Assembly: GCA_026986785.1 (NCBI GenBank) | Contig: JALSNW010000015.1 | Coordinates: 62,001 to 126,000 of the forward strand | Source: Deltaproteobacteria bacterium | GTDB lineage: Bacteria; Desulfobacterota; Dissulfuribacteria; Dissulfuribacterales; QOAL01 | Reading direction: 5' to 3' | Length of the DNA stretch: 64,000 bases | In this document: positions 54,959 through 59,241 of the stretch, piece by piece | How positions within the stretch are numbered: the stretch's first letter is position 1 | Layout of the letters: every line of letters begins with the position of its first letter | Program-made: the position numbers and the translations under genes | Notes under the pieces: generated by a model | Databases searched by the model: none | What the model saw: the letters and a program-made list of their open reading frames with translations, nothing else | Told to the model about the DNA's origin: nothing

Positions 54959-54988
54959 TTGACATTTCCGAGACTTCCAGATTATTTT
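54959..54988 (+). promoter_or_regulatory. Putative promoter of the ferredoxin-sulfite reductase operon
   Basis: A perfect TTGACA (54959-54964), an 18-bp spacer and TATTTT (54983-54988, four of six), about 85 bp before the ferredoxin start. A short stem (CCAGC with GCTGG, about 55042-55058) lies in the leader. Confidence 0.5.
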
Positions 54989-55072
54989 CAAATGGCCTTT
55001 TCCCATGTTGGCGTATTGACGTGCGAAGGGGTGTCGAAGACCAGCAACTCTTGGCTGGCCAAAGGAGATTTT

Positions 55073-55273
55073 ATGGCAAGACAGGTTTTTATTAACAAGG
55101 TCAAGTGCAAGGGATGTGGCAGTTGCGAGGAAGTCCTTCCAAGGGCATTCAAGATGGACGAAGATTTTGAAAAGGCCGAGTTTATTGGGGATGGAGAAGA
55201 GATAGATCAAGAAGTACTGGAGAGTGCAGCTGCCATTTGTCCCACAAAGTGCATTGAAATAGACGGTGATTAA
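55073..55273 (+). CDS. Small ferredoxin, one [4Fe-4S] cluster
   Basis: 66 residues. Ligands are CKGCGSC and ICPTKCI, i.e. three Cys plus a distal Cys-Pro; the second set lacks a full motif, so one cluster is expected. It probably feeds electrons to the sulfite reductase encoded 15 bp downstream. I use the ATG at 55073 with AGGAGA 6 bp ahead; the longer frame begins at the promoter. Confidence 0.92.
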   Translation: MARQVFINKVKCKGCGSCEEVLPRAFKMDEDFEKAEFIGDGEEIDQEVLESAAAICPTKCIEIDGD

Positions 55274-55288
55274 GCAGTAGGGCAAGCC

Positions 55289-55945
55289 ATGTTGAAAGAT
55301 GGTGAAAAGGGGGCGGTAATCCAGAGGGACAAGAAGACCTATGCCATTGTGCCCCACATAGCTCTGGGGCTCGTAACCCCTTCCCAATTGAGAAAGATAG
55401 CAGACGTAGCTGAGAGATACGGCGCTGCCTTGAAAATAACCAGTGCCCAGCGTATTGCCATTGTCGGCCTAGAGGAGAAAGACATCGATCCCATCTGGGC
55501 AGAGCTTGGGATGGATCCAGGGGCTGCATTGGGCCTGTGTGTCAGGAGTGTCAAGGCATGCCCTGGCACAACTTTTTGTAGGTTGGCAAAGGGAGATGCC
55601 ATAGGCCTTGGCACGGAACTTGATCGGAGATATCACGGGATGAAATTGCCCTGGAAATTCAAGATGGCTGTTTCAGGATGTGCAAATCAGTGTGCGGAAA
55701 ATTGTATCAAGGACCTTGGATTTTATGCCAAAAGTGGTGGATGGATTGCAACTGTAGGCGGAAATGGCGGTTCTAGACCTCTCCTTGCAAGGCAGTTGGT
55801 AGCGGGGTTGAGTTACCAGGATGCCCTTGAGCTTGCCGAAAGGGTTATTGGATATTTTGATGCAAACGCCAGAAAGACCGAGCGCCTCGGTAGGCTCATA
55901 AACAGGGTTGGATTCCAGGAATTCAAGGATGCAGTACTTCCCTGA
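55289..55945 (+). CDS. Small assimilatory-type sulfite reductase (siroheme, [4Fe-4S])
   Basis: 218 residues, one half-size nitrite/sulfite reductase module: a ferredoxin-like half domain (GLVTPSQLRKIADVAERYG) and the cluster/siroheme motif CPGTTFC with CANQCAENC. The length and layout match the low-spin assimilatory-type sulfite reductase of Desulfovibrio (about 218 aa). It reduces sulfite or a related oxyanion by six electrons. A dissimilatory DsrAB is not in this window. A ferredoxin precedes it. Confidence 0.92.
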   Translation: MLKDGEKGAVIQRDKKTYAIVPHIALGLVTPSQLRKIADVAERYGAALKITSAQRIAIVGLEEKDIDPIWAELGMDPGAALGLCVRSVKACPGTTFCRLAKGDAIGLGTELDRRYHGMKLPWKFKMAVSGCANQCAENCIKDLGFYAKSGGWIATVGGNGGSRPLLARQLVAGLSYQDALELAERVIGYFDANARKTERLGRLINRVGFQEFKDAVLP

Positions 55946-55972: not shown

Positions 55973-56794
55973 ATGGCTGAAAAAACAGTTGACCACGAAG
56001 GGCAGGGCATGATTCGAGGCCTGAATTGGCTTGGGAGGAAAACCCTCGACATCATAGGAGAGCTTGGGGCCCTGGCCATCTTTTTCTGCTACGGTATCAT
56101 CTTGATATTTTCCCTGCCGTTCCAGTTCAGGAAGATAATACAACAGGTCTATTTCATAGGGGTGAAGTCCTTTCTGATAATCAGTCTCATTGGACTGTTT
56201 ACAGGGATGGTGTTGGGTCTTCAAGGTTATTACACCCTTGTCAAGTTCGGGGCTGAGGGGATGCTCGGTGCTGCTGTTGCCCTTTCCCTCATAAGAGAGC
56301 TCGGACCTGTGCTCACAGCCCTCATGGTCATTGGCAGGGCAGGTTCTTCAATTGCTGCCGAGATAGGCATCATGCGCATATCAGAGCAGATAGACGCCCT
56401 GGACACCATGGACATCAACCCTATGCGCTATCTCGTTAGCCCAAGGATGGCGGCCTCTGTAATCGTGTTTCCAATGCTGACTGCCCTTTTTGATGTCATA
56501 GGCATCTTTGGGGGATTTCTGACCGGGGTTCTTCTCCTTGGTATCAATTCTGGGATATATTTCAATAGGATTTACGATAGTGTTGTGTTAAAGGATGTCA
56601 CTGGCGGGTTCCTCAAGAGCCTTGCCTTTGCCTTGATAGTTTCCACGATATGTTGCTATCAGGGCTATTTTACCCATATGAGGTCTGAAGGCTTTGGTGC
56701 CAGGGGCGTCAGCCTTGCAACCACTTCTGCCGTGGTGATTTCTTGTGTGCTTGTCCTTGTACTCGACTATGTTCTCACTTCATTCCTCCTGTGA
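55973..56794 (+). CDS. mlaE: Mla-type ABC permease MlaE
   Basis: 273 residues, about five to six helices. LVKFGAEGMLGAAVALSLIRELGPVLTALMVIGRAGSSIAAEIG (about 93-136) and QIDALDTMDINPMRYLV are MlaE signatures. With MlaF, MlaD and MlaC it moves phospholipid between inner and outer membranes. No mlaB (STAS) or mlaA gene is here. Confidence 0.95.
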   Translation: MAEKTVDHEGQGMIRGLNWLGRKTLDIIGELGALAIFFCYGIILIFSLPFQFRKIIQQVYFIGVKSFLIISLIGLFTGMVLGLQGYYTLVKFGAEGMLGAAVALSLIRELGPVLTALMVIGRAGSSIAAEIGIMRISEQIDALDTMDINPMRYLVSPRMAASVIVFPMLTALFDVIGIFGGFLTGVLLLGINSGIYFNRIYDSVVLKDVTGGFLKSLAFALIVSTICCYQGYFTHMRSEGFGARGVSLATTSAVVISCVLVLVLDYVLTSFLL

Positions 56795-56799
56795 AAGAC

Positions 56800-58035
56800 A
56801 TGAATGAGCCCTTTATAGAATTTAAGGACGTTTCCAAGAGCTTTGGCAGTCTCAAGGTGCTGGACAAGGCCAATCTTGCCATTTATCAAGGTGAGATAAC
56901 GGCCATCATAGGGAAGAGCGGTGCAGGCAAAAGCGTTCTCTTGAAACATATCATAGGCCTTCTCAAGCCAGATTCGGGACAGATACTCGTGAGGGGAAAG
57001 CCTCTCAGCCAATTTACCAAGGCAGAGTGGAGACATTTCAAACGATCCCTCAGCTACATGTTTCAGAACAATGCCCTCTTCGATTCCCTGACGATCTTTG
57101 AAAATATTGCCCTCCCCCTTGTTGAACGAACCAAGATGTCTGCTGCTGAGATCAGGAAGAGGGTGATGTTTCGCATAGAACAATTCGAACTGGGAGACGT
57201 AGAGGGGAAATACCCGTCCCAGATCTCAGGAGGGATGCAAAAGAGGGTAGCCCTTGCAAGGGCAGTGGTCACCGAGCCTACAATGATCCTTTTCGACGAA
57301 CCCACCACTGGCCTAGACCCTTTGAGAAAAAACGCAGTGCTCAATATGGTGGCCCACTATCAGAGGGAGATCGGCTTTACAGGGGTGATGGTGAGCCATG
57401 ATATACCCGATGTCTTTTTTATCAGTAACAGGGTTGCCATAATAGAGAATAAAAAGATCGCCTTTCAGGGTACACCCCTTGAGCTTGAACAATCGGACGA
57501 CGAGGTGGTATGGCAGTTCATACATGGCCAGGAGGTGTTGCAAGATCAGCTTACCGGTCTTCACTCCAAATTCGAGGTGGAAAGGGCCCTCAAGCAGGAA
57601 CTCGACAGGATAGGCAGGTTTCAGGATGTCTTCTCCGTAGTCCTTTTTTCTGTGGATAGCCTGGAGCAGATCAGGGAAAAGGTTGGATATATCGCTGCCC
57701 AGAGGATATTTCAGTGCCTGGGTATGACCCTCAGAGAGAATCTTGGTACAGCAGGTTATGCCGCCAGGTTTGGCCCAGAAGAGATCCTGACGGTTATTCC
57801 CCAGGCAGATGCGACCAGGGCTGATTTGATAATAAAGGAGATCATCACTGAGTGTTCACGGCAAGAGCTGATGAACCCTGAAAGCTACAGGAAGGTCTGT
57901 CTGGATTTTGCCATAAAGGCCGGGATTGTTGAGGTTCGAAAGAAGATGAGATTGGAGGAGGTCATCTCCTTGGCGAGAAAGAGCCAGAAGGTCATTGCAA
58001 AACTCGAGTGCGATAAAGGACGAGGACCAGTATGA
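56800..58035 (+). CDS. mlaF: MlaF ATPase fused to a degenerate GGDEF-like domain
   Basis: 411 residues against about 270 for MlaF. Residues 1-245 are a full ABC ATPase: GKSGAGKS, SGGMQKR, ILFDEPTTGLDP and HDIPD. Residues about 249-350 follow the GGDEF pattern: DQLTGLHSKFEVERAL, then FSVVLFSVDSLEQIRE where the metal Asp-x-Asp is Ser-x-Asp, then ARFGPEEILTVIP at the active-site loop. Both changes argue against cyclase activity, so a regulatory or scaffold role is likely (inference). The start is the ATG at 56800; the longer frame overlaps mlaE. It overlaps mlaD by 4 bp. Confidence 0.9.
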   Translation: MNEPFIEFKDVSKSFGSLKVLDKANLAIYQGEITAIIGKSGAGKSVLLKHIIGLLKPDSGQILVRGKPLSQFTKAEWRHFKRSLSYMFQNNALFDSLTIFENIALPLVERTKMSAAEIRKRVMFRIEQFELGDVEGKYPSQISGGMQKRVALARAVVTEPTMILFDEPTTGLDPLRKNAVLNMVAHYQREIGFTGVMVSHDIPDVFFISNRVAIIENKKIAFQGTPLELEQSDDEVVWQFIHGQEVLQDQLTGLHSKFEVERALKQELDRIGRFQDVFSVVLFSVDSLEQIREKVGYIAAQRIFQCLGMTLRENLGTAGYAARFGPEEILTVIPQADATRADLIIKEIITECSRQELMNPESYRKVCLDFAIKAGIVEVRKKMRLEEVISLARKSQKVIAKLECDKGRGPV

Positions 58036-58481
58036 AGAAATATTCACAAGAGACATTAGTCGGTATATTTGTCCTGATAGGGATATTGTGTGTGGGCTAT
58101 CTCACTATCAAGCTTGGCAAGATGGAGCTGATAGGAGGTGATTTCTACAATATAATTGCGAAATTCGATTCTGTGGCAGGTCTGAAGCCTGACAGCAGTG
58201 TGCAGATGGCAGGTGTCGAGATCGGTAGAGTTACCAAGATCGATCTGGATACAAAGGATTTTGTGGCAGTGGTCACCATGAAGATCCACAAGGGGGTGCC
58301 CATACAGGAGGATGCAATAGCATCCGTAAAGACCAGTGGCCTCATCGGAGACAAGTATATCAGCATCCAGCCCGGTGGCTCAGAAGAACTTCTGAAACCA
58401 GGTGGTGTGATCACAGAGACCGAATCTGCGGTTGACATAGAGAGCCTTATCAGTAAATACGTGTTCGGCAATGTCAAGTAA
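58032..58481 (+). CDS. mlaD: MCE-domain protein MlaD
   Basis: 149 residues. One N-terminal membrane helix (ETLVGIFVLIGILCVGYLTIKLG) and a single MCE domain with GLKPDSSVQMAGVEIGRVTKIDL and IGDKYISIQPGG. It forms the periplasmic hexamer ring on MlaE. The ATG overlaps the mlaF stop (ATGA). Confidence 0.95.
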   Translation: MKKYSQETLVGIFVLIGILCVGYLTIKLGKMELIGGDFYNIIAKFDSVAGLKPDSSVQMAGVEIGRVTKIDLDTKDFVAVVTMKIHKGVPIQEDAIASVKTSGLIGDKYISIQPGGSEELLKPGGVITETESAVDIESLISKYVFGNVK

Positions 58482-58596
58482 TATCAAGGCGAACCAGATC
58501 TGTTCGATATCTTGTAATGCATGATTTGAAATAATGGCTATGAATCTATCACGTGCAGGGCTCACATTCCTGTTCACGATATTTAGGAGGCGAGAT

Positions 58597-59241
58597 ATGA
58601 ATCTGATTAGAGGCAGGCTTGGATTTTCTCTGGCCATTTTTTTGTTCACCCTGTTTTCCCTCTATTGTCCAATACAGGTGGATGCTGGAGTTACTTCTGG
58701 AGGCATCACCCCTCGCCAGGAGGTGGAACGACTGGTCAATCAGGTATTGGACGTCCTAAAGGATCCGAGATATAAAGGAGATGCCCACAAGGAAGAACGC
58801 CGCCAGAAGCTCAGGGCGCTTGTCAATCAGATATTCGACTTCAACGACATATCGAGACGGGTGCTTGGAAGATATGTCAGGCGTTTTTCAAAGGAACAGT
58901 TCAAGGAATTCAAATACCTGTTCTCAAGGCTCTTGGAAAAGATCTATCTTACCAAGATAGAACACTACTCTGGTGAGAAGGTAGTCTTCGAGCAGGAAAA
59001 GATGCTTACCCCTACCAAGGCCTCTGTCCTTACCAAGATCATCAAAAACGACCAGGAGATCCCAGTGGAATATCGTCTTGTCAAAAGGGATGGGAAGTGG
59101 ATAGGATATGACGTGGTGATAGAGGGCGTAAGCCTCGTAAAGAACTACAGGAGCCAGTTTTACGAGATCCTGCATAACAAAAAGCCAGAGGATCTGCTGA
59201 AGATAATGAGAAAAAAGGTGAAGAGTCTTCCAGACAAGTAA
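58597..59241 (+). CDS. mlaC: Periplasmic phospholipid carrier MlaC
   Basis: 214 residues. The signal peptide is FSLAIFLFTLFSLYCPIQVDA. The mature part has the MlaC/Tol-Ttg2 pattern FDFNDISRRVLGRYVRRFSKEQFKEFKYLFSRLL (about 77-110), VEYRLVKRDGKWIGYDVVIEGVSLVKNYRSQF and YEILHNKK. GGAGG 8 bp upstream favours the ATG at 58597 over the ATG at 58534. Confidence 0.94.
   Translation: MNLIRGRLGFSLAIFLFTLFSLYCPIQVDAGVTSGGITPRQEVERLVNQVLDVLKDPRYKGDAHKEERRQKLRALVNQIFDFNDISRRVLGRYVRRFSKEQFKEFKYLFSRLLEKIYLTKIEHYSGEKVVFEQEKMLTPTKASVLTKIIKNDQEIPVEYRLVKRDGKWIGYDVVIEGVSLVKNYRSQFYEILHNKKPEDLLKIMRKKVKSLPDK

Follow-up and report, generated by a model that had tools for sequence, protein, structure and literature searches.

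The window analysed here, a stretch of 64,000 nucleotides from a Deltaproteobacteria bacterium of the order Dissulfuribacterales, encodes a phospholipid ABC transporter of the MlaEFDC type, in which a catalytically dead GGDEF fold is joined to the C-terminus of the ATPase subunit. The genes lie in the order mlaE, mlaF, mlaD, mlaC, and the features concerned are as follows:

55973..56794, + strand, mlaE, lipid ABC transporter permease (Pfam MlaE, E 2.6e-80)
56800..57534, + strand, mlaF, ABC ATPase part, residues 1-245 (Pfam ABC_tran, E 4.5e-37)
57535..58035, + strand, mlaF, degenerate GGDEF domain, residues 246-411 and stop codon (Pfam GGDEF and fold search; catalytic positions lost)
58032..58481, + strand, mlaD, MCE domain (TIGR04430 MlaD, E 2e-49, over the cut-off)
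58597..59241, + strand, mlaC-like, periplasmic lipid-binding protein (Pfam MlaC, E 3e-48)

The mlaF reading frame is intact, running from an ATG at 56800 to a stop codon at 58033-58035 and encoding 411 amino acids, and the sequence shows an ATGA overlap between this stop codon and the mlaD start. The mlaC-like frame is open from position 58534, and an AGGAGG motif together with a signal peptide suggests a start at 58597. A gene for MlaA is located elsewhere in the window's genome. Adjoining mlaE on its upstream side are a ferredoxin and a 218-residue nitrite/sulfite-reductase-like protein (window 54959-55945). A scan of the window against Rfam returned no matches.

With a complete set of ABC ATPase motifs (Walker A GKSGAGKS, signature SGGMQKR, Walker B ILFDEP and H-loop SHD), all of them invariant across the alignment of relatives, and with mlaE and mlaD as operon-mates, the protein can be assigned to MlaF. 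The ABC_tran match covers residues 21-170, and the best NCBIfam model is PRK11831 MlaF at 194 bits, a score that lies under the 441-bit equivalog cut-off of the E. coli-type model NF008809. The tail matches Pfam GGDEF (PF00990) over residues 248-393 with an E-value of 9.6e-15 and 55 bits, above the curated cut-off of 23.8, and also NCBIfam TIGR00254 (E 3e-14). The core of the GGDEF fold spans approximately residues 248-404, with no linker between it and the ATPase part, so that a folded domain directly follows the nucleotide-binding domain (NBD). The first-pass annotation had placed a GGDEF scaffold on this tail from position 57544, which is residue 249, and both its motifs and its coordinates proved correct.

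Structure prediction supports this assignment. An AlphaFold2 model of residues 241-411, for which ten close relatives were used, had a pLDDT of 83 and a pTM of 0.81. When this model was searched with Foldseek it matched GGDEF crystal structures with E-values down to 1e-8, and comparison by VIA gave Z-scores of up to 16.2 against GGDEF structures (diguanylate cyclases) over 146-150 aligned residues. The cyclase fold, whose absence from such a prediction would have spoken against the initial reading, is thus clearly seen. In the full-length AlphaFold model the ATPase part had a pLDDT mostly below 50, because the input alignment contained close relatives only.

The residues needed for catalysis were examined in an alignment of 53 fused domains from approximately 18 families with three intact GGDEF domains from the window's genome. 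That genome also encodes one other degenerate GGDEF domain (L053, G000:C23:91211-91606), which is N-terminal in a 363-residue frame. The roles of the aligned metal, guanine and phosphate positions are those established for PleD, and the columns of the phosphate-binding residues K442 and R446 align poorly at the C-terminus. The metal-binding Asp of strand 1 is absent from all 53 fused domains, being Ser in the window, and none of the 53 has the GG(D/E)EF signature loop. The window has GPEEI at this place, in which the second Gly has become Pro and the Phe has become Ile, with the two acidic loop residues kept. The guanine-binding Asp (D344 of PleD) is replaced by Gln in 48 of the 53 domains, that of the window included, and the guanine-binding Asn (N335 of PleD) is Arg in the window at a position that is unconserved overall. 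The window's domain consequently lacks all three hallmarks of an active diguanylate cyclase, namely the loop, the metal Asp and the guanine-binding Asn/Asp pair. Moreover, the RxxD motif of the c-di-GMP inhibitory site (I-site), five residues before the loop, is absent from the window; at the aligned position it occurs only in four early-branching members (L131, L150, L151 and L152). The I-site, the metal Asp and the guanine-binding residues are lost both in the window and in its whole derived clade. The loss of catalysis noted in the first-pass annotation is therefore wider than described there. A catalytically intact relative inside the clade was also sought, and there was none among the 53 fused domains. 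Judged by these residues, the window's domain is predicted to make no c-di-GMP, and binding of this nucleotide at the classical I-site is not expected in the window's lineage.

Two residues, Gly253 and Arg323, do not vary among the 53 fused domains, and the residues kept in these domains comprise the LTGL turn, Gly296, Gly375, Pro334 and Arg323. What is still conserved looks mostly structural, serving to hold the fold. Also shared by the fused domains are a conserved helix, which reads VGYIAAQRIFQC in the window, and two cysteines, Cys367 and Cys404 (codons at window 57898-57900 and 58009-58011), each of which is found in 44 of the 53 domains, with both in 38, and which are absent from the three intact domains. 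A metal, redox or packing role is possible for these cysteines.

Pairwise comparison indicates that the GGDEF domain is under purifying selection. For those pairs with usable dS and enough differences, the Nei-Gojobori dN/dS of the GGDEF part is 0.06-0.24, approximately twice that of the ATPase part, which corresponds to a constraint about half as strong. Were the tether flexible, its length should differ among relatives. In each of the 54 fused proteins, precisely 52 residues separate the H-loop Ser from the LTG turn, and this lack of length variation at the junction suggests that the orientation of the domain relative to the ATPase is most likely fixed. Given such long retention at an unvarying place, the domain probably keeps the two halves of the motor together, or controls them.

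Full-length fusions are present in 49 of 395 genomes, an even sample of the phylum, and come from approximately 19 families. The fused genes are nearly always found in mlaE-mlaF-mlaD-mlaC operons, and the same architecture is seen in 30 loci of the same order and in approximately 16 further families of the phylum. An assembly or frame artefact was considered and is ruled out by the recurrence of the fusion in dozens of independent genomes. Within the window's order, the fusion occurs in all 19 genomes of the window's own family (f1), in most of f2, in f3 (where it is truncated by the contig end) and in f5; in f4 and f6-f11 the best MlaF match is unfused. Most f2 members that have an MlaF carry the fused form, and the unfused MlaF of one member of this family (G042:C80, L091) falls in the canonical clade and is either a replacement or a second copy. 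Among 398 genomes of Pseudomonadota there were no matches at E 1e-72, in a set that contains no positive control.

In a tree built on the ATPase part, 55 fused sequences fall in one clade (support 100/100) with seven unfused sequences inside it, and 19 other MlaF proteins are placed outside. Inside the fused clade, locus L156 (3783-4655) retains a 43-residue remnant of the domain and at L155 (4139-5299) the domain is shortened in the middle, so that loss appears to be ongoing. The domain has been lost from L156 and L157, and possibly from L158-L162; it is, on this evidence, dispensable in places. The simplest reading of this history is one origin of the fusion followed by several losses; the unfused long branches L161 and L162, which sit amid poorly supported earliest branching, could predate it. 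The MlaF-like ATPases of L158-L160 (G420, G251 and G312, family f50) are 58-59% identical to that of the window and have no GGDEF domain, and no mlaE or mlaD match lies beside them. One further locus (L145 37-6829, G176:C15) contains two different mlaF-GGDEF genes, the second without an adjoining mlaE, together with mlaE, mlaD, mlaC and MlaA; behind these lies an RsbW-like HATPase_c_2 gene (PF13581, E 4e-22), which was seen in none of the remaining mla stretches.

What, then, might the dead domain do? In E. coli, the C-terminal extension (CTE) of MlaF, residues 247-269, is 23 residues long and reaches over the partner MlaF, and its deletion abolishes function (PMC7367683). The CTE has been proposed to promote MlaF dimerisation, a fused GCN4 dimeriser partly rescues the deletion, and in other ABC ATPases the association of NBDs is regulated by folded C-terminal domains (PMC7367683). 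E. coli residue 247, with which the CTE begins, aligns with the very start of the GGDEF domain, and from this common start we infer that the dead scaffold may serve as a rigid C-terminal dimerisation or regulatory domain for the MlaF NBDs, a role to which we assign about an even chance. The GGDEF fold would then take both the place and the job of the CTE, and do what folded C-terminal domains do in ATPases such as MetN and MalK. Beneath the NBD dimer it could form a pair with the second copy of itself, or lie against the adjacent MlaF; such a contact would help the NBDs to stay paired and bound to MlaE, and the domain might also offer a surface at which a partner or ligand tunes transport. Several points run counter to a pairing role. 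Most unfused MlaF proteins of the phylum have only 7-19 residues past residue 243, so that not every MlaF requires a long CTE; some members of the clade do without the domain; and GGDEF domains on their own usually form weak pairs, for which they have to be activated.

On balance, the domain more plausibly stands in for the E. coli CTE than for MlaB or for a nucleotide sensor. Replacement of MlaB as the regulator of MlaF had been the first proposal, made because the operon has no mlaB. Indeed, no STAS gene encoding an MlaB subunit is present in the window's operon, and no STAS_2 (PF13466) match was found in the window's genome (a draft, 99% complete); E. coli MlaF, for its part, requires MlaB in order to remain in the complex (PMC7367683). 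The absence does not, however, go together with the fusion. A STAS HMM, which detected the E. coli MlaB control at 33 bits, gave no matches over 60 mla stretches, fused and unfused, 20 of which have canonical unfused MlaF. Across the sampled operons of the phylum, absence of mlaB is thus the rule whether or not MlaF is fused, and since unfused operons lack MlaB too, the co-occurrence argument for its replacement fails. MlaB is, in addition, reported to be sparsely distributed among diderms (PMC10665443), and we regard its replacement by the GGDEF domain as very improbable. A hidden MlaB elsewhere in the window's genome was also considered and rejected: there are three PF01740 matches, one in a 746-residue frame and two in ORFs beside PAS and HATPase-like ORFs, none of which is near an mla gene. 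In some relatives (L081, L082, L083 and others), frames of approximately 380 residues with an N-terminal STAS_2 match adjoin a second MlaF-like gene; these belong to a second Mce-type system, whose permease may be fused to a STAS domain.

A domain that binds c-di-GMP or another nucleotide and thereby gates lipid transport would follow the example of degenerate GGDEF receptors of the PelD, PopA and SgmT type, which act as sensors for other outputs. The window's genome encodes the three intact diguanylate cyclases and has seven PilZ matches, so c-di-GMP is likely to be present in the organism; RxxD is retained in the four early-branching relatives, and the Gln at the former guanine-binding Asp, with the invariant Arg323, looks as if the pocket had been re-purposed. 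Set against this, the window and its derived clade have lost the I-site, the metal Asp and the guanine-binding residues, the position equivalent to N335 is unconserved, and the other conserved residues mostly hold the fold. The nucleotide sensing suggested for the window protein by the first-pass annotation is therefore unlikely, given that the GTP-recognition positions checked and the I-site are all gone; it is possible mainly for the few early-branching relatives with RxxD. A history in which the ancestor was a c-di-GMP-gated phospholipid transporter, with early branches still binding through the I-site and window-type lineages having swapped the ligand for, e.g., a redox cue (the conserved Gln and Cys367/Cys404), is distinctly improbable. 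That the domain is instead a docking platform for a signalling partner or localisation factor, with no part in NBD pairing, would explain why fold, helix and cysteines are retained although catalysis is gone, and there is a precedent in GGDEF proteins working through protein contacts, at least as the subject of PMC5635695; no additional gene was seen alongside the fused operons in a profile that covered known Mla components and STAS, and we consider this reading unlikely. The truncations or losses in L155, L156 and L157 and the weaker constraint relative to the ATPase would suit a domain that is mere baggage, left from a gene fusion long ago and now without a role, an idea that the purifying selection, the unchanged junction and the retention over some 19 families make highly improbable.

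Both parts of the protein belong to known families, and what appears to be new is their combination and its persistence across a phylum; no description of an MlaF-GGDEF protein was found in the literature searched, outside which lay most subscription journals and all of bioRxiv. Like E. coli MlaF (PMC7367683), the window's protein is the ABC ATPase of an MlaE/D/C phospholipid system with a Met in its signature motif, and differs in having a 165-residue GGDEF fold and no MlaB where E. coli has the 23-residue extended tail and MlaB. With the diguanylate cyclases PleD, WspR, DosC and SadC the domain shares the fold (Z approximately 16), the LTGL turn, the GH glycine and the RYGG arginine, and it departs from them in its missing metal Asp, signature loop, guanine contacts and I-site and in its fusion to an ABC ATPase. 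PelD, PopA and SgmT likewise put an inactive GGDEF scaffold to a purpose other than synthesis; these are c-di-GMP receptors that retain the RxxD I-site, which here is confined to the four early-branching relatives. In MetN, MalK and ModC, too, a domain directly follows the NBD as a candidate control of NBD pairing, with other C-terminal folds that serve substrate or regulator sensing in importers. The Amt-GGDEF transporter (PDB 8qj3) also joins a transporter to a GGDEF domain; unlike MlaF, it is a channel-like ammonium transporter with no ABC ATPase.

Most diderm bacteria lack MlaB, and a whole MlaF subfamily in which a folded but inert GGDEF domain occupies the place of the dimerising tail, carried by many bacteria of this phylum that cycle sulfur and sulfate, is a natural experiment on how Mla is assembled and regulated without it. 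If ancestral gating by c-di-GMP were true, biofilm signalling would have been coupled directly to outer-membrane lipid balance, and the few members that bear RxxD allow a direct link of c-di-GMP to lipid transport to be put to the test. If the proposed pairing or regulatory role is correct, the GGDEF fold would count among the C-terminal domains by which ABC ATPases are controlled, and the fold of a signalling enzyme would have been recruited as a part of a transporter.
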